Assembly (NCBI RefSeq): GCF_008254045.1
Contig: NZ_CP042425.1
Location: 6,944,001-7,008,000, forward strand
DNA: 64,000 nt
Direction: 5' to 3'
Origin: Limnoglobus roseus
Lineage (GTDB): Bacteria > Planctomycetota > Planctomycetia > Gemmatales > Gemmataceae
Part shown: positions 1 through 63,003 of the stretch, piece after piece
Layout of the letters: each line of letters begins with the position of its first letter
How positions within the stretch are numbered: the first letter of the stretch is position 1
The notes under the pieces: model-generated
Database searches by the model: none
The model's input: the letters and a program-made list of their open reading frames with translations, nothing else
Told to the model about the DNA's origin: nothing
Program-made: the position numbers and the translations under genes

Positions 1-2794
1 AGTCGCCGAGCGAGTCGAGGCTGTACTGCCGGTCGAGGTACCGCTGGCCCTCAGACAGGTCCACGGCTTCGACCGCCTTCCTCGCGGCTTCCTGGAAGTA
101 CTCGCCGAGGTTCTCCTTGCCGATCTTCTTCAGGTCCGCCACGCCGACCTTCAGGCCGAAGCGGGCCTCGGCTACGCGGGCGAGTTCCTGCCACTTCCAG
201 TCTTTTTGGTCGTCGCCGCCGAGGTTCTCGTCGATGGCCTCCTGGATGTACGTCGGCGACGTGTCCAGCGCCCGGTCGCGGGCCACCTGCACGGCTTCCT
301 CGTAGTTACAGCCGCGGAAGTCGGACGGGTCGAACTCCACGCCGAGGCGGGCGGCGGCAAACTGCGCGAAGCTCGCCTTGCCGTAGTTCTCGTCGGTGTA
401 CTCGTCGACCGCGTCGCGGATCTGCGCGTCGAGCATGTCGAGGATCATGATGCGCGGGTTGCCGCCGTCGAGGACGGCTTGCCGGGCGGAATAGGTCCGC
501 TTCCGCTGGGTGTCCATGACCTCGTCGTAGTCGAGGAGGTTCTTCCGCTGGTCGAAGTGATACTCTTCGACCTTCCGCTGGGCCTTCTCGATCTGCCGCG
601 TCAACATGCCGCTCTCGATCGCCTCGCCGTCCTTGAGGCCGATGAGCGGGCTGTTCATGAGGCGGGCCATCCGCTCGCCGCCGAACAGCCGCATGAGTTC
701 GTCGGACAGCGACATGTAGAACCGCGACGACCCGGGGTCGCCCTGCCGACCGGCCCGCCCGCGGAGTTGGTTGTCGATCCGCCGGCTTTCGTGCCGCTCG
801 GTGCCGATGATGTGCAGGCCGCCCATGTCGGCGACCTTGCGGCCCTCCTCCTTCATCTTTTCCTTCGACTCGATGTCGTTGACGGTCTGCTTCCAGACGT
901 CTTCCGGCACTTCGAGCCGCGTCGGGTAGAGCGGGCGGTTGCTCTCGTTCTTGAGGTTCTGGAGCCGTGCCCACGCCATCGTCTCGGCGTTGCCGCCGAG
1001 GATGATGTCGGTGCCCCGGCCGGCCATGTTCGTCGAAATCGTGACGGCGTTCACCCGCCCGGCCTGGGCCACAATTTCCGCCTCGCGGCCGACGTGTTCC
1101 GGCTTCGCGTTCAGCAGTTCGTGCTTCACCCCGCGGCGCTTCAGCAGGCCGGACAGGTGTTCGCTCTTGGCCACGTCGGTCGTGCCGATGAGGATCGGCC
1201 GGCCGGTCTTGCTCGTCTCCACGACCTCGGCCACCACCGCGTCCCACTTGTCTTTCTCGTTCTTGAAGACGAGGTCCGGGTGGTTGACCCGCTGGAGCGG
1301 CTTGTTCGTCGGGATGGCGACCACGTCGAGGTCGTAGATTTTTGCGAACTCGCTCGCCTCGGTCATCGCGGTGCCGGTCATGCCGCCGAGTTTCTTGTAG
1401 AGCTTGAAGAAGTTCTGGAGCGTCACCGTCGCAAGGGTCTGCGTCTCCTGCTTGATCTTCACCCCGTCGCGACGGTGCTTGGCTTCGACGGCTTGGTGAA
1501 GCCCGTCGCTCCACTGCCGGCCGAACATCGCCCGGCCGGTGTTCTCGTCGATGATGATGATGCCGAGGTCGTTGTTCTCGCGCGGGTCTTGCGCGATCAT
1601 GTAGTGCCGGTCGCGGTGGTACAGGTGGTGCGCCTTGATGCTGTTGTCCAGCAGGTGCGGCCACTCCATGTTGCCGGGCGTGTAGAAGCTTTCCACGCCG
1701 GCCAACCGTTCCGCTTCGCGGACGCCCAGGTCGGTCAGGTGGGCCGAGCGGTCCTTCTCCTTGATCTCGAAGTACACGCCGCGGGGCACGTCCTTGACCT
1801 TCTCGGGGTCGAGGGTGCCGACGATCGGCAGGCCGTTCCCTTCCGTGCCGGTGAGCGTGGACTGGCCGGACGCCTTCATCTCCTGCCGGGCGGCCTTTTC
1901 CAACTCCGTGAGCTTGCGGACGATCTCGTCGGCCTTCTCGTAGTTGTTCACGTCGGTGTAGGCCGGGCCACTGATGATGAGCGGCGTACGGGCCTCGTCG
2001 ATGAGGATGTTGTCGACTTCGTCGATGACGGCGAAGTTCAACGGCGTCCGCTGCACCTGCCGGTAGAACGGGTCGTACTTTTCGTCGTCAAACCGGGCCG
2101 GCTTCATGTTGTCGCGGAGGTAGTCGAAGCCGAACTCGCTGTTGGTGCCGTAGGTGATGTCGCAGTCGTAGGCGTGCCGGCGGCGTTCCGGGTCCATGTC
2201 TGACTGGATGTACGCCGCCGAGACGCCGAGCGTCTGGAAGATCGGCAGCATCCACTCGCAGTCGCGGCGGGCGAGGTAGTCGTTGACGGTGATGACGTGA
2301 ACGCCCTTGCCCGGGAGCGCGTTCAGGTACGCCGGCAGGGTGGCGACGAGCGTCTTCCCTTCGCCCGTGACCATCTCGGAGATGTTGCCCCGGTGCAGGA
2401 CGACGCCGCCGACCATCTGCACGTCGTAGTGCCGCATCCCCTTCGCCCGCCGGGCGGCTTCCCGACACGCGGCGAACGCCTCGGGAATCAGGTCGTCGAG
2501 CTTCGTGCCCGTCTTCAACTTATCGCGCAACTTCGGCGTGATCGCCTTCAGGTCGGCGTCGCTGAGGGCCTTCATCGGCTCTTCGAGCTTGTTGATTTGA
2601 TCGAGAATCGACCCCGGAACGACGGTGTGCTGGGGAGCATTCTTCGGCCGCGAGTAGCCGATCCCCTTGACCATGCGCTCGTTAGCCGAGCCGAAGAGTC
2701 GGGTGACGAAGCCGAGACTGCCTTCGACGAAGCCGTTGAGCTTGTCGCCGATCTTTTCGAGGATACCCGCTTCCACTTTCGTATCGGTCGCCAT
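1..2794 (-). CDS. secA: Preprotein translocase subunit SecA (C-terminus beyond window)
   Basis: SecA is the cytosolic ATPase that drives secretory proteins through the SecYEG channel. About 931 codons are present and the 3' end lies outside the window. Visible motifs are the Walker A core TGEGKT at about residue 120, the DEVDNILIDEA Walker B region, the preprotein cross-linking region after it, and the second ATPase half with TNMAGRGTD and QLRGRAGRQGDPGSSRF. The N-terminus starts MATDTKVEAGILEKIGDKL and then shows the SecA-typical RDKL and MRHYDVQ segments. A sigma70-like promoter lies 45-75 bases upstream. A long open frame on the opposite strand is a GC-driven shadow. Identity is very secure; only the extreme C-terminus, where a zinc-binding tail may or may not occur, cannot be seen. 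Confidence 0.97.
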   Translation of the reverse strand, partial: MATDTKVEAGILEKIGDKLNGFVEGSLGFVTRLFGSANERMVKGIGYSRPKNAPQHTVVPGSILDQINKLEEPMKALSDADLKAITPKLRDKLKTGTKLDDLIPEAFAACREAARRAKGMRHYDVQMVGGVVLHRGNISEMVTGEGKTLVATLPAYLNALPGKGVHVITVNDYLARRDCEWMLPIFQTLGVSAAYIQSDMDPERRRHAYDCDITYGTNSEFGFDYLRDNMKPARFDDEKYDPFYRQVQRTPLNFAVIDEVDNILIDEARTPLIISGPAYTDVNNYEKADEIVRKLTELEKAARQEMKASGQSTLTGTEGNGLPIVGTLDPEKVKDVPRGVYFEIKEKDRSAHLTDLGVREAERLAGVESFYTPGNMEWPHLLDNSIKAHHLYHRDRHYMIAQDPRENNDLGIIIIDENTGRAMFGRQWSDGLHQAVEAKHRRDGVKIKQETQTLATVTLQNFFKLYKKLGGMTGTAMTEASEFAKIYDLDVVAIPTNKPLQRVNHPDLVFKNEKDKWDAVVAEVVETSKTGRPILIGTTDVAKSEHLSGLLKRRGVKHELLNAKPEHVGREAEIVAQAGRVNAVTISTNMAGRGTDIILGGNAETMAWARLQNLKNESNRPLYPTRLEVPEDVWKQTVNDIESKEKMKEEGRKVADMGGLHIIGTERHESRRIDNQLRGRAGRQGDPGSSRFYMSLSDELMRLFGGERMARLMNSPLIGLKDGEAIESGMLTRQIEKAQRKVEEYHFDQRKNLLDYDEVMDTQRKRTYSARQAVLDGGNPRIMILDMLDAQIRDAVDEYTDENYGKASFAQFAAARLGVEFDPSDFRGCNYEEAVQVARDRALDTSPTYIQEAIDENLGGDDQKDWKWQELARVAEARFGLKVGVADLKKIGKENLGEYFQEAARKAVEAVDLSEGQRYLDRQYSLDSLGD

Positions 2795-42945: not shown

Positions 42946-43557
42946 CTACGCCGACAGCGACGGCACCTCCGCGGACAGGTACGCCAGTCTCCCCTGCCTC
43001 ACGATCGCCGCCGCGTAAGTTCGCGAGATGCCGACCGCCTGGCCGATCTCGCGGAACCCCTTCCCCTCGGCCCGGAGGGCGTAGATGCGGGCCACGTCCT
43101 CGCGAGAGAACCGCGTGCGGCCGAAACTACAGCGGCCCTTCGCGGCCATATCCGCCGCGTTGTCGGCGGGGGTGCCGAGGAAGAGGTGCGCGGGGTTGAC
43201 GCAGCCCCGGTTGTCGCAGCGGTGACACACGAACCGGCCGCACGAGATCGCCCCGTTCGCGAGTTCGTAGGCGAAGCGGTGGGCGGGGACGCGGCGGCCG
43301 GCGTCGTGGTAGAAGCTACCGTACCCCGTGCCCGCCTTCGCCCCCGTCCACGCCCAGCACTCGTCCGGCCCCGCCTTCGCGACCTTCGGCCAGAACCGCG
43401 TCGCCGGATCGACGGCCCGCTCCTGCTTCCGATAGCGAGACCGGATCTCGGGCCGGTAGTAACACTGACCGCACAGCCCGCGGGGGCGAGTCGAGGGGCC
43501 GCGTTCGCAGTGGAGACAAAGTAACATCGGCGGCGACGGGCCGCAGGTTTGGGGCAT
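42946..43557 (-). CDS. HNH endonuclease with C-terminal helix-turn-helix
   Basis: A 203-residue protein. An N-terminal zinc-like segment (CLHCERGPSTRPRGLCGQC) precedes DECWAWTGAKAGTGYGSF, the AHRFAYELANG strand and the HNH core CHRCDNRGCVNPAHLFLGTP, typical of phage and mobile HNH nucleases. The end is an AP2/HTH-like module, REDVARIYALRAEGKGFREI then GQAVGISRTYAAAIVRQ, which would bind DNA. The start at 43557 follows GAGGAGG; the longer in-frame start lacks it. HNH genes often accompany phage late genes or act as homing enzymes. It is the last gene of the leftward block. Confidence 0.85.
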   Translation of the reverse strand: MPQTCGPSPPMLLCLHCERGPSTRPRGLCGQCYYRPEIRSRYRKQERAVDPATRFWPKVAKAGPDECWAWTGAKAGTGYGSFYHDAGRRVPAHRFAYELANGAISCGRFVCHRCDNRGCVNPAHLFLGTPADNAADMAAKGRCSFGRTRFSREDVARIYALRAEGKGFREIGQAVGISRTYAAAIVRQGRLAYLSAEVPSLSA

Positions 43558-50840: not shown

Positions 50841-51113
50841 TTGACCGAATCTCCAGCCGAACTCGCCGCCCCGCCCGAAGCCGAGCCGAAGGTGACGCGG
50901 GTCATCGACGGCGTTGTCCTTCACGACCCCGAGCCGTGGGCGATCGCCGTCTTCGAGGAGTTGCTGAATGAGATGCGGGAGCGACGGCGAACCATTTACC
51001 TCATGCCCCCGGTGAAGATCGTCGCCGCCCTCACCGCCGCCGGTTATCGACCCGTCGAAGGCACGAGGTGGTGGGAACCGCCGCCGCCGATCGAGCCGTC
51101 GCCCGCCGCCTGA
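50841..51113 (+). CDS. Small unknown protein, first of the rightward block
   Basis: A 90-residue protein with TTG start. The core is VTRVIDGVVLHDPEPWAIAV then FEELLNEMRERRRTIYLMPP, and it ends in Pro-rich PPPPIEPSPAA. No family recognised. Located after the structured RNA and 44 bases before the frameshifted pair. Weak GAGG upstream. In phage tail modules a small gene often precedes the chaperone pair, but nothing in the sequence proves such a role here. Confidence 0.5.
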   Translation: MTESPAELAAPPEAEPKVTRVIDGVVLHDPEPWAIAVFEELLNEMRERRRTIYLMPPVKIVAALTAAGYRPVEGTRWWEPPPPIEPSPAA

Positions 51114-51157: not shown

Positions 51158-51451
51158 ATGTTCGCCGCGAAAGACCGCCTCATCTATGCCGACGTGTCTG
51201 GTAAAAGCCTCGACCCCCTCGTCGTCCGCCGGAAGCTGATGCTGGCGACGAAGGGCGAACTGAACGCCCTCCTCGATCAAGCCGCCGGCTCCGACCCGCT
51301 CCCCGCCCTCGCCGCCGAGGAGGCCCTCGCTGGGGCCGCGCGGACCGCGTTCGACTTCCCCGCTTTCACCCCCGACGGCGGCGGCGCGACCGACCTCGAC
51401 TGCCTCGAAGAACTGAACCGCTTCGTGGAGTGGGTCGAAAAAAAACTCTGA
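51158..51451 (+). CDS. Tail-assembly-chaperone-like protein, zero-frame product
   Basis: A 97-residue protein, MFAAKDRLIYADVSGKSLDP onward, ending EWVEKKL. Its last codons are GAA AAA AAA CTC TGA, a run of eight As, directly followed by a stem-loop, so part of the ribosomes should shift to the -1 frame and make a 187-residue fusion. This arrangement is the signature of the gpG/gpGT tail assembly chaperones of siphoviruses. Sequence similarity to known chaperones could not be judged. Start is the ATG at 51158; a longer frame begins with an unlikely leader. Confidence 0.65.
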   Translation: MFAAKDRLIYADVSGKSLDPLVVRRKLMLATKGELNALLDQAAGSDPLPALAAEEALAGAARTAFDFPAFTPDGGGATDLDCLEELNRFVEWVEKKL

Positions 51452-51720
51452 GCGGCGAGGTCCTCTCCGACTTCGCCGCTGCCTACGGCGCTCCCGCCGC
51501 CCTCGACTACGACACCTTCGTGCAGCTCTACCTCAACATCCCCCGTCGCAACTCCCGGACGGCGCTTCTGTTCTCCGACGCCGTAAGTGTGGCGGTGGGG
51601 ACGACCCAGAAGCCGGCCGACTGGGTGTATGACTCCAGCGAAACCCCTGAGCAGGCGGAAAAGTGGATCGACGATCACAACACGGCCCAAATCCTCTCGC
51701 GAATGAACGCTCCTGGCTGA
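51430..51720 (+). CDS. -1 frame extension of the chaperone-like gene
   Basis: An open frame that overlaps the end of the preceding gene. Through a -1 shift at the A-run its residues follow on as TLSGEVLSDFAAAYGAPAAL, then DYDTFVQLYLNIP, to a TGA at 51718-51720, adding 91 residues. Reading from the GTG at 51430 would give 96 residues alone, but no ribosome-binding site is present and the frameshift gives a better explanation. The extension has helical amphipathic segments, e.g. ETPEQAEKWIDDHNT. Confidence 0.62.
   Translation: MGRKKTLSGEVLSDFAAAYGAPAALDYDTFVQLYLNIPRRNSRTALLFSDAVSVAVGTTQKPADWVYDSSETPEQAEKWIDDHNTAQILSRMNAPG
51438..51480 (+). promoter_or_regulatory. Programmed -1 ribosomal frameshift signal
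   Basis: Eight As (51438-51445) give the slippery A-AAA-AAA in the zero frame. After a five-base spacer an eight-bp GC-rich stem (AGCGGCGA at 51451-51458 pairs with TCGCCGCT at 51473-51480) closes a 14-base loop. The zero frame stops at TGA immediately after. Geometry matches known -1 signals. Confidence 0.75.
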
Positions 51721-52469
51721 CGCCGCGGGTCACGTCCGCGCGTCTCCGCCGTCCCGTCTTCCCGGCCCCGAGGGCGACGCCGACGCTGCCCCGACCGGGG
51801 CCGCCCGAGCGTTCCCCGACGCCGCCCGCTCCCCGGCGCGGGCGGGGGCTGACGCGAACGGACGTGACCCCGGTTCGGCTCCGCGCGACGAGGTTCCCGG
51901 CGGCGGCGACCGCGATGCGCCCTCTGCTGCGAATGTCCGCGGCGGTGTCGCCATCACCGCCCCCGCTGCGACCGCCCGCGGCGACCGCCCCGCCGCCTTC
52001 GCCCCCGCGGCCGAGGGCGATGAAGACGACACCGGCGGCCCCGCCACCGGCGGCGCGGTTGAAGGTCGGCGGCGTGTCGGTGAAGCCGGTGAGTCTACCC
52101 CCCCGAGGTTCTGCCGCTCGCGACCCCGCCGATCCGCTTCCGCCGACGGCGTCGCAGCCCAGCCCCCGAGCCGAGTTGTTCCGGCCGCCCCTGTCCCTGT
52201 TCCCTCGCCCGATCCGCAGCTTCGCCGGGCCGCGGGCGGAGGTGACGAAGGCCCGCCTCCGCGACGCCGCGGTCGCCCCGCCCGAGAGTCTGACCCGGCG
52301 GGGCGAGCGGCGGTCGGGAGACGGAGGCGGGACCTCGGCTGCGTCGATCCGGCAATGGTCCCCAGCCCCCTCTCAGGAGCCGCCCCCGCCGAAGGCGAAG
52401 ACGCCGCCTGTGCTGCCGAACGCGGCCCGGCCGACGATCCGCCCGCGGCTGCGGCTGTCTCAGATCTAA
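51721..52469 (+). CDS. Pro/Ala-rich low-complexity coding region, frame ambiguous
   Basis: Two plus-strand frames stay open. One runs from 51663 to TAA at 52467-52469 and is Pro/Arg/Ala-rich; the other lacks a normal start but continues into the gene at 52508 and has the G-first codon rhythm of a coding frame (Ala/Gly/Asp/Glu). The first overlaps the preceding gene by 58 bases. I cannot decide which is translated, or whether the second is an N-terminal extension started from CTG. A tape-measure-like protein would sit here in a tail module, but the length is far too short. Confidence 0.35.
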
Positions 52470-52507: not shown

Positions 52508-53578
52508 GTGATTCTGACTTATAATAACGTTGTTTTGGATGTCCTTACGAATGAGGTCCGGCGGGAATTGGTGTATACAGAGGACGGTTTGTCGCCGGTG
52601 ATGATCCGCTGGACGCTGTCGGTCACGGGCTACCTCAATTCCGCGAAGGTCAACTACAGCCAGGACCCGTCGCCCGAGGTCACGGTGCCCGCGGTGACGG
52701 CCTGGGGACAGCCGATCCCGTCGTCGCCGGGGTCGCTGGGCCAGCAGTCGCTCGCCAACCTCGTCCCGCCCAGCGGCGCGAACCGGCTCCGGCCCGCGGT
52801 GGTGCCGCTGAAGTCGCCGCAGCAGCAGGTGACGGACGTGATCACGACGGACCACTGGGTGACGAAGGCCCTGCTGACGCCGCGGAAGTTGCTCCAGTTC
52901 GGCGACTATAACGCGGCTTCGCCCGCCGAGCCTCGACTGATGCTGTCCCAGCCGCCCGACGGGGAGGTCTGCGACGTAGGCGGGGGGCCGCTGCCGATCG
53001 CCTGCGACGCGCGATCGATCATCGGCTCACCGTCCACGATCGTCGTCGAATTTTCGATCCAGACGTTCACCAAGTTCGAACCCTATTCGGCGTCCGTGGC
53101 CGATTCGCTGGTCCTCTCCAATGAGTACCAGATGACCCACACCTGCGACGAGGAGTACTCGACGATCCGCGACGTGGTGGGCCGTATCACGTTCCGCAGC
53201 GACGCCGTCGAGCGGCTGAAGTTGAGTCCCGATTCGCTCCGCAGCGGGGTCTTCCTCCCTATCCCCGAGGGGTATCGCCGCACCTCGATTCAAGTCGTCG
53301 CGCGGTCGGACGGGCGGACCCTGGAATACTCCTGGCGGGACGTTCAGCAGCACACCAACGTCGTCGACTACGGCATCGGCATCGCGCACATCGAGTGCGA
53401 GATCACCGAGGCGATGGTGAAGGACAAGACGTTCGACGAGAACTTCGTCTCGACGTGGCGGTCGATCTACGACCTGCGCACCGCCCGCAACTTTGCGGAG
53501 CAGAAGAAGGACCCGAAGGACGCCGACCCCGGCCTCTTCCTGAAGGCATTTCCCCCCGCCCCCAACGGCAAACCTTAA
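52508..53578 (+). CDS. Tail-module protein of unknown function, 356 residues
   Basis: Start taken at GTG 52508 (VILTYNNVVLDVLTNEVRREL), where the globular part begins; an ATG at 52355 gives a Pro/Ala leader. The protein is beta-rich with YTEDGLSPVMIRWTLSVTGYL and a C-terminal TWRSIYDLRTARNFAEQKKD. It follows the chaperone-like pair and starts a run of closely spaced plus-strand genes (8- and 3-base gaps downstream), so it is likely structural. I recognise no baseplate or portal motif. Codon use is the same as the neighbours. Confidence 0.6.
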   Translation: MILTYNNVVLDVLTNEVRRELVYTEDGLSPVMIRWTLSVTGYLNSAKVNYSQDPSPEVTVPAVTAWGQPIPSSPGSLGQQSLANLVPPSGANRLRPAVVPLKSPQQQVTDVITTDHWVTKALLTPRKLLQFGDYNAASPAEPRLMLSQPPDGEVCDVGGGPLPIACDARSIIGSPSTIVVEFSIQTFTKFEPYSASVADSLVLSNEYQMTHTCDEEYSTIRDVVGRITFRSDAVERLKLSPDSLRSGVFLPIPEGYRRTSIQVVARSDGRTLEYSWRDVQQHTNVVDYGIGIAHIECEITEAMVKDKTFDENFVSTWRSIYDLRTARNFAEQKKDPKDADPGLFLKAFPPAPNGKP

Positions 53579-53586
53579 GAGGCGAC

Positions 53587-54489
53587 ATGGTAGCTCCCTT
53601 AGTCCGCGGCCTCGGCTGGCTCGCCGCCCGAGCCGGGGCCGGCAAAGTCAAAGATCATGCGTTCCGGTGGGCAATCAACAAAGGCATCAAACTCGGCGGT
53701 GGAGGTGGTATGGGCGTGTTCAACTGGTTCACGGACAAGGGCGTTGATTGGGTCAACGTCGCCGCGAACATTTCGGAGGGGATGATCCCGAGTGTGGAGA
53801 CCAAAGCCTATTGCGTCGTCCACGGGATGCCGCATAGCACTCGCAAGGACCTCCACAAGTTCGCGCTGTCGCTGTTGTTCTCGATGGTGAAGAGACGGCG
53901 AAAGCAGGGGGCTGGGGCGGCCCTGCCGCCCGCGGCGGTGTTGATCGCCCGCTTCGACATGGTCCGCAAAATTGTCCACGTGGAAGTCAGCTACCGGACG
54001 AGCGCTCTCGGGAACCTCATCAACGCGGGAGCCGGAGTAGTTCTCGACCCCTTCGACTTCGAGATCGCCAACGACGACACCGTGAACGACTCCCTCGTCT
54101 GTATCAACGGCACTGAAGATAAGTACATCGGTGACGCCTTCACGCACCAAAACTGGCTCGAACGCCGATTCCTCGGAGGGGTACCCAAGCTCCCCGGCGA
54201 GGGGAAGATCCTCCTCACCGACGACCCGAAGACGGTGAACCCGGCCCCGCCGGGCGACTTGGTCTCCCGCGGCCTCCTCGAATTCGTCGTCTTCGAATCA
54301 ATTCGCAATCCGCCGTCGCTCATCAACCACGCCGAGCTGATCGAGAACGACCCCCGAAACAAGGTTCCCGGCGCGGTCGGAGCCTACACGCCCGCGAAAG
54401 ACTTGAAGACGCCCCGAGACAACGCCCCCGTCCCTGTCTGGGAAAAATTTTGGGCCGCGAAGAACGTCACTCCCCCGAAAGGTATGTAG
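53587..54489 (+). CDS. Uncharacterised protein with N-terminal hydrophobic segment
   Basis: A 300-residue protein. The first 60 residues include a Gly-rich turn (GIKLGGGGGMGVFNWFTD) next to a hydrophobic amphipathic region. The core (SVETKAYCVVHGMPHSTRKD, ALPPAAVLIARFDMVRKIVH) looks mixed alpha/beta. It begins eight bases after the previous stop, with AGAGG upstream, and ends three bases before the next start, so it belongs to the rightward operon. No family recognised. Confidence 0.65.
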   Translation: MVAPLVRGLGWLAARAGAGKVKDHAFRWAINKGIKLGGGGGMGVFNWFTDKGVDWVNVAANISEGMIPSVETKAYCVVHGMPHSTRKDLHKFALSLLFSMVKRRRKQGAGAALPPAAVLIARFDMVRKIVHVEVSYRTSALGNLINAGAGVVLDPFDFEIANDDTVNDSLVCINGTEDKYIGDAFTHQNWLERRFLGGVPKLPGEGKILLTDDPKTVNPAPPGDLVSRGLLEFVVFESIRNPPSLINHAELIENDPRNKVPGAVGAYTPAKDLKTPRDNAPVPVWEKFWAAKNVTPPKGM

Positions 54490-54492
54490 CCG

Positions 54493-55224
54493 ATGCCCTC
54501 ACCGCCGACCGCTTACCCTCGCTTCTTCGACGACGCCTCCCGGCAGTCCTACGACGAGGCCGAACACTGCGAATCATACGAGACTAACCCTGGGGTCTGC
54601 ATCCTCCCCTCCGGCGAACCGGAGCCGACCGACCCCGAGAAGAGGAAGCTCTGGAAGCCGGTCGTGGCGATCAAGCTCCACGAACCCTATCGGCTCCGCC
54701 GGTCCCAGCACAGCTACGACCGGCAGAACACGCCGCCGCTGTTGCCGAAGGTGGCGGACTCGGGGCGATTCATCGCTCTCGGGGGGAGTCATACCTTCGC
54801 CTTCAGCCCGTCCCTGGACGGTCAGTCGGTTCGCTACCGGGGGGCTTGTGACATCACCTTCGTCGAACACGCGAACCTCCGCTGCGTGACCGGCTTCACG
54901 ATTGGGGACGAACCGTATACCGTCGAGCAGCAGCGGCGGATGCAGGTCTCCCCCGGCGTCCCTTACAACGGCGACGAATCGCAGATCATCGTCGAGACCT
55001 CGCCAGAAACCCGAAAAGGCCAGGTCCTCGGCAGCTACATCAACCACGCCGACCCCTACTCGGGGTTGGAAGCCTACGGCGGGTGCTACTCGGTCACGAG
55101 CTGGATTCCCGACACCTGCTTCTCGCAGTCGATGATCTCGGCCGGGGGCCTGCCGGTTCCCAACCCGCCGCCCCCGCCCCCTCCGCCGGCCCTGCCCCCG
55201 TCGCCGGGGTCGCCCCCGCCGTAA
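54493..55224 (+). CDS. Uncharacterised protein with poly-Pro tail
   Basis: A 243-residue protein, beta-rich (GACDITFVEHANLRCVTGFT), with a C-terminal run of about 25 mostly Pro residues (PPPPPPPPALPPSPG). Such tails may be flexible linkers in structural proteins. Starts three bases after the previous stop, so it is probably translated by coupling. No family recognised. Confidence 0.63.
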   Translation: MPSPPTAYPRFFDDASRQSYDEAEHCESYETNPGVCILPSGEPEPTDPEKRKLWKPVVAIKLHEPYRLRRSQHSYDRQNTPPLLPKVADSGRFIALGGSHTFAFSPSLDGQSVRYRGACDITFVEHANLRCVTGFTIGDEPYTVEQQRRMQVSPGVPYNGDESQIIVETSPETRKGQVLGSYINHADPYSGLEAYGGCYSVTSWIPDTCFSQSMISAGGLPVPNPPPPPPPPALPPSPGSPPP

Positions 55225-55302: not shown

Positions 55303-55554
55303 GTGGACAGCAACTGCCTCTATTGCGGGAAAGCCGGCGTCCTCGGCGTGACGCTCCAGCGGGCCGTCTACGGCGGGAACCACTTCAAGGGGAGCGAAGT
55401 CGTGGACGTGTGCGAGGAGTGCTACCCGAAGCACCAGAAGTCGAGGAAGACGGACTACTCCGTCTTCTTCTGGGTGTTCCTCTTCATCGGTAGCATCCTC
55501 TTTCTTCGGGTCTTTCACGAAGTCTTGGTCGAGATTCAGAAGCTCTTCCGCTGA
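55303..55554 (+). CDS. Small zinc-finger membrane protein
   Basis: An 83-residue protein with GTG start after GGAGAG. The N-terminus has CLYCGKAG and the middle VCEECYPKH, a CxxC...CxxC zinc-binding pair. The C-terminal 35 residues form one transmembrane helix (VFFWVFLFIGSILFLRVF). Zinc-knob/membrane pairs of this size are seen in phage holin-region genes and in bacteria; role unknown. A terminator follows. Confidence 0.62.
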   Translation: MDSNCLYCGKAGVLGVTLQRAVYGGNHFKGSEVVDVCEECYPKHQKSRKTDYSVFFWVFLFIGSILFLRVFHEVLVEIQKLFR

Positions 55555-55651: not shown

Positions 55652-56221
55652 ATGACCGTCCCCAACTTCAACGTGCAGCACCCCGCCTCCGGCCCGGCCG
55701 ACGTGTGGATGAAACTCGGCGCGAACGCCTGGGGCCAGCTCGGCTACACCGAGACCGGCGTGCGGATCGACTTCGTCCCGGAGTGGATCGCGATGCCGAC
55801 GGACCGCCGGGGGCCGACCGGGGCCGATTTCCGCGTCACCGGCGGCGAGACGGCGAACGTCGTCCTCACCCTCGCCGAGTGGGACGTGGCCTTCTACGAG
55901 GCGGCCAAGTCGCGGACGCGGAACGCCTCCGGGGCCGGGTTCTACGACCGCCGGGACATCGGCGGCTACGCGACGGGGGCGCTCCAGATCGCCGTGCGGC
56001 ACCAGTTCTACGGCTCCGTCGCCGCGACGCCGGGCCTGCCGCCGGGGTACCTGTTCCCGAACTGCTTCATCACCCCCCACTCGCTCTCGCCGATCGGGAC
56101 GCGGTCGCCGAAGTTGGCGATCAGCTTCGAGGCCGAGCCGATCTTCGACGGGGGCTTGGGCGGGTGGCTGTTGTACTCGACGGCGACGAGTTTCTTCGGC
56201 TCCCTCCCGGCTCCCTGCTAG
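55652..56221 (+). CDS. Phage tail-tube-like protein
   Basis: A 189-residue protein whose first half follows the pattern of phage major tail tube proteins: GPADVWMKLGANAWGQLGYTE, GVRIDFVPEWIAMPTD, then FRVTGGETANVVLTLAEWDV. The second half is a beta-rich C-terminal part (GALQIAVRHQFYG, LAISFEAEPIFDGG). No ribosome-binding site is obvious. It is separated from the operon upstream by a terminator, so may have its own promoter. Tube proteins polymerise into the tail or into tail-like tubes; lack of other recognisable tail genes makes its role uncertain. Confidence 0.65.
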   Translation: MTVPNFNVQHPASGPADVWMKLGANAWGQLGYTETGVRIDFVPEWIAMPTDRRGPTGADFRVTGGETANVVLTLAEWDVAFYEAAKSRTRNASGAGFYDRRDIGGYATGALQIAVRHQFYGSVAATPGLPPGYLFPNCFITPHSLSPIGTRSPKLAISFEAEPIFDGGLGGWLLYSTATSFFGSLPAPC

Positions 56222-56470
56222 CGGGGGCGACGAGTAGCGGCCGGCCGATCAGCCACCCCCACAGTCAGCGGTTCCCAGACGCGACGGAGACGGAAGGCCT
56301 CGCCGAGTTGTACTGCTACTTGGAATGGATGGCGTAGGTGAAGGCGGCCCGTTCCCACCGCCTCAGGCACTTCGTGCTGCGTCATCTAAAACGTCGCGGC
56401 GCGTTGCGGCACCTCTTCCCGCGAGAGAACATCATCGTTAAAGTTACGCCATAGAAGGAGGATGGGCCGT

Positions 56471-60155: not shown

Positions 60156-61052
60156 ATGAATCAGGGGTGTGAACCAGAAACGGACGCGGTCGCAGACGTG
60201 CCGGATGACGTGAGGTCCGCGTTTATCAAACTCGAAGCGACCCAAGAGGCTGTCGATCAAGGATACCAAGAGGATTTGGCGGTCGCGCCAGCCGGTATCA
60301 CGGCCGAGCGACTGAGACAGATCCAAGATTTTCACTCGCGGCATCGTCGCGTATTGCTAATCTGGCCGGCGACGATGCGGAAGGAGAAAAAGTACAACGC
60401 CTTGACCGACGGCCTGAACCCAGACGAGGTTACACAAGCGCTTCAAGAGGGCTTGGCGTGGGCCGCTTACCTCTGGGAGAACGAGGGCGACGCCTTCTCC
60501 TTCGCTATGGGGTGCTGCTCGAACTATGTGAGAAAGGCGAGGAGTAGAAAGCTGGCCGAGCTGAACTGGCGGAAGGGCATCAACAAGCTCTTTCGGAAAC
60601 GCCGCCGGAAACTGATTCAAGAAGCCGGGACCGATGAAAGTCTTCGCCTTACGTGGTCCTCAGACCCCCCCGCGCCCCTTCGGAAGTCAAAGCTACTGGA
60701 GAGTCTATCCGAACGGGACCGGGAGTTTTTGGTCCTGATCTACGAGGGCGACCTGGGGCCGAGCGAAGCTGCGAGACGGACGAAGACGAGTTGCGAGTAC
60801 AACACGGCTTTGCGGCGAAAGAATAGGCTGCTCGCGCGACTCGGAAGAACCTTGTGCGAGTCCCTTCAAACCGTAATGTCTCGACCCGATTCGGAGTGGG
60901 AGTCGCACCCCATTTTTCGTCTGCTCAAAAACGCCTACGGCCGAGAGGGGGCGATTGACAGGATACAAGAGTCGAGTTTGAAGTCGGAAGCCCCTGACGA
61001 TTCGGACGATCTCGATCTCTCCGTCGAGACCGTGGCCCCGCCCTGTCACTAG
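60156..61052 (+). CDS. Sigma-factor-like regulator
   Basis: A 298-residue protein. The C-terminal part from about 180 resembles sigma region 4: LESLSERDREFLVLIYEGDL, GPSEAARRTKTSCEYNTALR, RKNRLLARLG, a helix-turn-helix. The middle (ALQEGLAWAAYLWENEGDAF, SFAMGCCSNYVRKARSRKL) could be a region 2-like helical bundle, with less certainty. Such genes often control late functions in phage-like elements. Start chosen at 60156 after GAGGAAGGG; a longer in-frame start adds a basic unconserved 56 residues. Which promoters it uses cannot be read from sequence. Confidence 0.6.
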   Translation: MNQGCEPETDAVADVPDDVRSAFIKLEATQEAVDQGYQEDLAVAPAGITAERLRQIQDFHSRHRRVLLIWPATMRKEKKYNALTDGLNPDEVTQALQEGLAWAAYLWENEGDAFSFAMGCCSNYVRKARSRKLAELNWRKGINKLFRKRRRKLIQEAGTDESLRLTWSSDPPAPLRKSKLLESLSERDREFLVLIYEGDLGPSEAARRTKTSCEYNTALRRKNRLLARLGRTLCESLQTVMSRPDSEWESHPIFRLLKNAYGREGAIDRIQESSLKSEAPDDSDDLDLSVETVAPPCH

Positions 61053-61785: not shown

Positions 61786-63003
61786 CTATCTCTGCGTCGC
61801 CTCGGGCGGCGGCGGCTCCTTCGGCTTCAGAGCCTTCTCCAGGGCCTCCGCCGCCGCTTGAGCGATCGCCGCGTCCCGTTCGGCGTAGACCAGGGTCGTG
61901 GTCGGTGAGGAGTGGCCGAGGAGGGCGCGGGCGGCGTCGAGACTGAGGAGGCGGCGAGTCTCCGTGGCGGCCCAGTGGCGGAGCTGGTTCGGGTGCCAGT
62001 GGGGAACCCCCGCTTTCTCGGCCGCGGCCTGGATCTGCTTCCCATACGCCCGGCTGTCGATCGGGAGCGCCCGCGTCGGGGAGAGGAAGACGAAGGCATC
62101 GGCCCCGCGGGCGACGGCGAGGTAGGGGGCGAGGAGCAGTCGGGCCGTCGAAGAGAGGGGAATGAGCCGCTCACGCCCCAGGTACGCCTTCTTGTGGCGG
62201 AGGGGGCGAATCGCGACGGGCGTACCACCCCCGCCCCCCGGTCGAGGATCGTCCCAGACCAAGTCGCCGAAGCGAAGCTGCCGCACTTCCCCCGGCCGAC
62301 CGCCGGTGAGGAGTTGGAGTTCGACGAGGTCGCGAACGACGGGGTTCAGTTCCTTCTGCGTCGCCCGCACGGTGTCGAGGGAGACGGAGAGGACCGGCGG
62401 TCGGTCGGGGGCGGCGGTGCGGCCGGGGCGGAGCGACTTTAGCCCCGCGAGGAGTACGACCGTCGGCTCGACGAGGCCCTCTTCGCTGAGCTGGCGAAGC
62501 CCGAACACGATTCGCCCCCAGCGCTGGTTGATGAGCTTCCGACACCACCCCCGCTTCACCATCGCCTCGCGGACCTCGGCCCATTCGAGCCGGACGAGCG
62601 AGCCGATGGGCCGATCGCGGTGGAGTGTTACGAGCGGCTCCCAAGAGCGGTGGTGGTCTTCGACTTCCCGCGAGACACGGCCGTCGGGGAGGCGGTAGTA
62701 ATTGCGGCAGATCGCGGCCCAGCGATCGAAGCAGGCCCCGACGGTGGGGGAACTCGACGGCGAAGGGGTCGGCGTCGCCGGAGGGGTCGCAGAAGGCGAG
62801 GGAGTAGGTGATGGTTCCGCGGGGAGTCGCGGCGGCTTCGGAGAAGCCGGGGAGCCTAAGTTCGCGATCACCTCCGCGTAGAGTCTCCTCGACTCCGCGG
62901 ATCCGTAGACGCCGAGGTAGATCACCTCGCGTTTGTCGCCCCGCCGGACGGTCACGTAAGCCTGATTCGTCGCCTTGTGTCGGCAGTAAGTTGGAAGACG
63001 CAC
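61786..63003 (-). CDS. Tyrosine recombinase (integrase)
   Basis: A 405-residue integrase with GTG start after TGGAG. A short N-terminal arm-type/strand region (QAYVTVRRGDKREVIYLGVY) precedes a Pro/Ser-rich linker (residues 50-88), the SAM-like core-binding domain and the catalytic domain: Arg236 in LTGGRPGEVRQLRF, Lys271/272 in RHKK, NQLRHWAATETR with Arg342 but Asn339 where most family members carry His, LLGHSSPTTTLVYAE with His364 and nucleophile Tyr373. The Asn is an active-site variation I believe is common in planctomycete recombinases. It lies next to the right core repeat and arm-like site and probably integrates and excises the element. Confidence 0.92.
   Translation of the reverse strand: MRLPTYCRHKATNQAYVTVRRGDKREVIYLGVYGSAESRRLYAEVIANLGSPASPKPPRLPAEPSPTPSPSATPPATPTPSPSSSPTVGACFDRWAAICRNYYRLPDGRVSREVEDHHRSWEPLVTLHRDRPIGSLVRLEWAEVREAMVKRGWCRKLINQRWGRIVFGLRQLSEEGLVEPTVVLLAGLKSLRPGRTAAPDRPPVLSVSLDTVRATQKELNPVVRDLVELQLLTGGRPGEVRQLRFGDLVWDDPRPGGGGGTPVAIRPLRHKKAYLGRERLIPLSSTARLLLAPYLAVARGADAFVFLSPTRALPIDSRAYGKQIQAAAEKAGVPHWHPNQLRHWAATETRRLLSLDAARALLGHSSPTTTLVYAERDAAIAQAAAEALEKALKPKEPPPPEATQR

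Follow-up and report, generated by a model that had tools for sequence, protein, structure and literature searches.

The closest described counterparts of the locus considered here are the tail assembly chaperones of phage lambda, where the tape measure is the binding partner of gpG and the tail tube protein that of the T part of gpGT (PMC5009743). Frameshifting of the G/GT kind is a widely conserved feature of long-tailed phages, although their sequence similarity is low; in E. coli, slippage is poorer on the heptamer A_AAA_AAA than on A_AAA_AAG (PMC5009743). Two overlapping frames, B and C, are found in the 64,000-nucleotide stretch of DNA analyzed here (the window; positions 6,944,001-7,008,000 of the host genome, a single contig of 9.38 Mb). 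With a probability of about 0.86, B and C form a tail assembly chaperone pair of the lambda G/GT kind that is encoded in a phage-derived tail module and uses a -1 frameshift. A -1 shift of ribosomes at a run of A residues very probably yields both a short and a long product from one gene.

Probable frameshift site and predicted products of B-C

The zero-frame gene B (51158..51451, plus strand) extends for 97 codons from an ATG at 51158 to a TGA stop at 51449-51451, and its 97-aa product is the predicted G-like domain of a tail assembly chaperone. The 3' end of B reads GTC GAA AAA AAA CTC TGA and includes the slippery heptamer A_AAA_AAA (51439..51445, plus strand), which is set in the zero-frame register, inside a run of 8 A's (51438-51445) and one codon before the stop. 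This 8-A run is the only one in the window when both strands are scanned; shuffled versions of the window hold a mean of 0.62 such runs, so such a run could well arise by chance, and its weight comes instead from its place, its register and the relatives. A spacer of 5 nt (51446..51450, plus strand) leads to a hairpin that is a candidate stimulator of slippage (51451..51480, plus strand), with 51451-51462 paired to 51469-51480 to form 12 bp, including one G-U, closed by a 6-nt loop. The hairpin energy is -23.1 kcal/mol across 40 nt, while a 60-nt fold gives -30.8, lower than all 300 dinucleotide shuffles (-19.3 +/- 2.7). The -1 frame C (51445..51720, plus strand) has 91 codons followed by a TGA stop at 51718-51720, and is predicted to encode a T-like domain produced solely as a B-C fusion of 96 + 91 = 187 aa. 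Consistent with a coding role, C has the sole positive codon-usage score of the six frames over 51452-51717 (+28, the others ranging from -7 to -68) and a GC3 of 0.83 over the same interval. The original prediction gave the same coordinates, gene order and product lengths (97 residues, or 187 with the frameshift), all of which are confirmed from the sequence. Its A-AAA-AAA run and five-base spacer at the end of the zero frame are likewise upheld; the stem, by contrast, was placed at eight bp and is corrected to 12 bp, making the hairpin stronger than had been described.

In the proposed mechanism, most ribosomes would terminate at 51449 to release the 97-aa B protein, while a minority, held by the 12-bp hairpin, would shift -1 on A_AAA_AAA to form the 187-aa B-C fusion. 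By analogy to lambda, B may act as a coat on the tape-measure protein, and recruitment of the tail tube protein H may fall to the C portion of the fusion. The slippage, the slippage rate, the binding partners and the production of particles by the module are aspects that we infer.

The structural model of B is confident (mean pLDDT 92) and depicts a small, mostly helical protein with four predicted helices (residues 20-30, 35-42, 47-65 and 79-96). Since searches of PDB and BFVD with this model give no match above noise to any solved or predicted chaperone (two annotated chaperones appear, only at an E of about 3), B is placed among the chaperones on genetic and positional grounds rather than by fold; the missing fold match is not evidence of a new fold. 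Neither B nor C has a significant match in Pfam or PHROGs. Nothing among 50,697 phage records is matched by tblastn of B and H or by the B protein of the relative L053, and an IMG/VR search with B and H yields no relative. A match of the B protein of L055 to a stretch of Rhizobium phage (E 1) is attributed to chance, the stretch being located in a 1,428-nt gene outside the tail genes. A pattern search of GTDB contigs retrieves a contig of genome G014 only; the alignment of 12 B proteins is too diverse to support searches of this type. By these comparisons, B-C is classed as a new sequence family of known arrangement.

Predicted slip sites and second domains of relatives

Relatives of the module are found among the Gemmataceae. 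A profile of D, a structural-type protein of the module, detects the family in 13 of 95 genomes of this group, and reading of the neighborhoods reveals more distant B genes; a wider B profile adds further loci. Genes outside the window are called by a simple codon-usage caller, and their exact starts are approximate. The B gene of L052 (genome G448) ends in TCA AAA AAA GCC TAG and that of L053 (G447) in GAG GGA AAA GGT TAG, with the heptamers A_AAA_AAA and G_GGA_AAA, respectively, positioned one codon before the stop and followed directly by a long open -1 frame. Heptamers in the zero-frame register that lead into a -1 frame are also noted in the form of C_CCT_TTT (L055/L056 of G011 and L079 of G036), C_CCT_TTC (L058, L062/L085 and L087) and C_CCT_TTA (L075). 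L074, L076, L077, L078, L088 and L092 are B-like loci in which no C domain is reached through a -1 heptamer. Matches of B in genomes G426 (E 4e-4) and G010 (E 0.005) were dropped, the former for its ordinary gene neighborhood and the latter likewise. Heptamers with YYY = AAA or TTT have a rough background rate of 0.0006 per codon, which would place the chance that six loci each have one in the overlap at ~7e-10 if independent; this estimate is rough, as the loci are not fully independent.

The original prediction had named relatives that lack the A run and stem as evidence against the signal. What the relatives keep is a slip heptamer; the A run is not universal, and any -1 heptamer appears to serve, as judged from the sequences at these sites. 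The stem is ruled out as part of a conserved signal, since the relatives are without an equivalent hairpin at that spacing and none has a hairpin at the usual spacing that clearly beats shuffles; the hairpin is particular to the window copy. Many slip sites function without a hairpin. The frameshift signal, of a textbook kind, is considered real because the relatives retain such a site while its sequence varies.

The C domain of the window is homologous to those of L052 and L053, with alignments that extend from the slip codon onward; the -1 peptides start at this codon with KTLSGEV in the window, KSLEGAF in L052 and KRLEGAV in L053. The alignment score is 92 for L053 (shuffle maximum 46; z 16) and 57 for L052 (shuffle maximum 43; z 7.8), and neither score is reached by any of 2000 shuffles. 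The shorter -1 domains of L055 and L058 are weak matches to window C (scores reached by 12 and 3 of 2000 shuffles, respectively), and that of L062 has no similarity to window C in pairwise comparison. Because the pairwise similarity of C is weak to absent, the C_CCT_TTN loci count as support by position more than by sequence. At L080 (G465:C224, about 1010-1740, minus strand), B and a C-like domain are encoded in one frame with no need of a frameshift, and none of 2000 shuffles attains the score of the C-like part against window C.

The relatives bear directly on other ways to account for the junction of B and C. One is that C is a separate overlapping gene, translated by coupling from the GTG at 51430, in which case the A run would be incidental. 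Overlapping genes are common, and this GTG is read in the C frame and precedes the end of the heptamer by 15 nt; however, it has no evident Shine-Dalgarno sequence at the proper distance, and in L052 and L058 the C frame is free of ATG, GTG and TTG codons over the interval that starts at the upstream stop and extends 60 nt beyond the slip site. With homology that begins at the slip codon itself and an L080 that encodes B and C as one protein, a separate start of C is judged quite unlikely. Transcriptional slippage in bacteria occurs near the length of eight A's found in the window, and RNA polymerase could, thus, slip on this run to generate mixed mRNAs, making the shift transcriptional rather than translational. 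The G_GGA_AAA, C_CCT_TTT, C_CCT_TTC and C_CCT_TTA sites of the relatives are too short for polymerase slippage and are instead standard tandem -1 sites; with a hairpin 5 nt downstream that fits ribosomal slippage, a polymerase-based shift is very improbable. Homopolymers are also the usual place of sequencing errors, and either an error or a recent indel in the A run might have split one gene. This would require independent genomes to be broken at the same place and in the same direction, including two in which the A run is 4 or 7 long, and the chance of such an artifact is regarded as slight in the extreme.

Tail module, sister islands and prophages

The context of the B genes is that of phage tails. 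In L052, L053, L055, L058 and L062, B is located directly after an H-like tail tube gene. In L058 and L062, the tail tube gene and B-C are followed by a gene for a helical protein of 332-369 aa, giving the order of tail tube, chaperone and tape measure; L053 and L055 show part of the order from tail tube to tape measure. The window has its tail tube gene 3' of B-C, not 5', and C is followed only by a Pro-rich frame with no clear tape measure. This Pro/Arg/Ala-rich frame (51663..52469, plus strand; start uncertain among the ATGs at 51915, 51933 and 52020) occupies the position of a tape-measure gene between C and D. Homology of this frame to the Pro-rich frames of the sister copies is not supported, as the similarity is no better than that due to composition.

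The other genes of the window module are on the plus strand. Gene A (50841..51113), directly 5' of B, encodes a 90-aa protein with no family match and no relative in the loci searched. Gene D (52508..53578) encodes a structural-type protein that is present in all module copies and is 31-35% identical in the sister copies; genes E (53587..54489) and F (54493..55224) are also conserved in the module, and gene G (55303..55554) encodes a small membrane-type protein that contains cysteine. Gene H (55652..56221) is assigned as the tail tube protein based on its predicted fold. While the H model is of middling confidence (pLDDT 68), its Foldseek matches are, with few exceptions, tail tube proteins (best E 5e-4, prob 1.0), and VIA-align gives a Z score of 9.8 (138 residues, 5.3 A) for the neck chain of phage Chi and one of 9.7 for the major tail protein of YSD1; the modeled fold of H is that of a tail tube. 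After H, where the sister copies carry an intact B, the window has a second-B remnant (56290..56340, plus strand) that reads ...TETEGLAELYCYLEWMA*. This remnant is viewed as a trace of rearrangement between island copies. A tyrosine integrase gene (61786..63003, minus strand; PF00589 E 7.6e-15, phrog_1 E 1e-28) marks the probable island end. Also inside the island is a gene for a sigma-70 region 4-like protein (60156-61052), with candidate equivalents near the integrase of the sister copies; this protein may serve the island as a transcription switch of its own. A homing-endonuclease-type gene of the HNH family (42946-43527; PF13392 1.2e-9) is situated left of the module.

Four further copies of B, about 46-52% identical, occur elsewhere in the host genome (L008, L009, L010 and L011). 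All four terminate in ...LYRYLEW(A/S)(A/G)-stop and are without a slippery heptamer or a C-like -1 frame, as is the B gene of G014, which has neither slip site nor second domain. Since the sister B genes end without heptamer and C, the frameshift signal is found in one copy and missing in four inside one genome. The original prediction of a tail assembly chaperone is supported by the heptamers of the relatives, the homology of the -1 domains and the tail tube neighbor; the sister copies and G014, with B but not C, count against it. The sister modules each include D, E and F, with H in two and an integrase-like gene at one end; their gene order is D-E-F-(G)-(H)-Pro-rich-B, compared to A-B-C-Pro-rich-D-E-F-G-H and then the second-B remnant in the window. 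Three further islands of the host genome (L029, L030 and L031 of G000) encode D-like proteins of 700-793 aa beside glycine-rich or helical tape-measure-like proteins, and L031 also has a B-like gene without a slip site.

Head genes are found with some of the relatives. L055 and L058 are inside prophages, with terminase large subunit matches on the 5' side (phrog_38 5e-100 and phrog_2 2e-24), Mu-type portals (PF06074 5e-47 and 2e-30) and a weak major head match. At L096 (12416-16513), a Mu-type portal of 1365 aa matches phrog_113 over its full length with 1602 bits; this full-length match indicates that the prophage type, though not its tail genes, is represented in PHROGs. Family scans recognize no terminase, portal or capsid gene in the window, where divergent ones could be missed, and no head gene near the sister modules; a sheath gene is likewise not recognized. 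Matches to terminase (7,245,054 and 6,167,536) and portal (6,169,182 and 1,972,994) are located only elsewhere in the host genome. At G000:C1:6167536-6170171, a terminase gene with one stop within the matched stretch is close to a Mu-type portal gene, and this region is probably a separate damaged prophage in the host genome.

The absence of recognized head genes near the module or its sister copies, with terminase and portal elsewhere in the genome, would fit a signal that is genuine by descent but dead, such that the window is a decayed prophage remnant and B-C is inactive. The second B is a remnant, insertion sequences interrupt one sister copy, and C is lost in the sister copies, all of which favor decay. 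By contrast, the module genes in the window are all open, C keeps a coding-like codon use, and the dN/dS values of 0.12-0.34 for D, E, F, H and B indicate purifying selection between the two sister copies compared. An inactive B-C is, therefore, considered possible but doubtful. It is unlikely, though conceivable, that the five copies, rather than being decayed prophages, form a Gemmataceae family of integrase-bearing, tail-only islands (with tail tube, chaperone, D, E and F but no head genes) that selection maintains and that either produce a tail-like particle or parasitize a helper phage, with a frameshifted two-part chaperone in the window and one-part chaperones lacking C in the sisters.

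Comparison with described systems

The reading of B-C as a chaperone pair of the G/GT kind provides one of the few functional footholds in phage-like islands of the Gemmataceae, the proteins of which otherwise match almost nothing; with B-C read in this manner, H is read as the tail tube and its neighbors as tail genes. That frameshifting in tail chaperones persists longer than sequence similarity is a rule that would be extended to a new protein family in the Planctomycetota, for which (as for the Gemmataceae within it) the literature searched contains no description of a tail-chaperone frameshift. The family offers natural variants for comparison (shifted, fused in frame or lacking the second domain), part of them in a single genome.

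The Mu-type-portal prophages of Gemmataceae genomes G011 and G448 are similar to the window module in having a homologous B-C that follows a tail tube gene, here with the -1 heptamer C_CCT_TTT or C_CCT_TTC. They differ in having their own terminase, portal and head genes, none of which is recognized near the window module. In the conserved frameshifts of tail genes in dsDNA phages with long tails (Xu, Hendrix and Duda 2004, cited in PMC5009743), the logic similarly outlasts changes in slip and protein sequence, and single-frame and unshifted variants also occur; the host of the present example differs in being of the Planctomycetota (Gemmataceae). Compared to lambda G/GT, with slip site G_GGA_AAG, the window B-C has no detectable sequence or fold match, a strong hairpin after the slip site and a tail tube gene that is downstream. 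B-C and lambda G/GT share a short zero-frame protein with a -1 extension, a heptamer close to the zero-frame stop and, in the relatives, a tail tube neighbor; the heptamer of L053, G_GGA_AAA, is near-identical to that of lambda.
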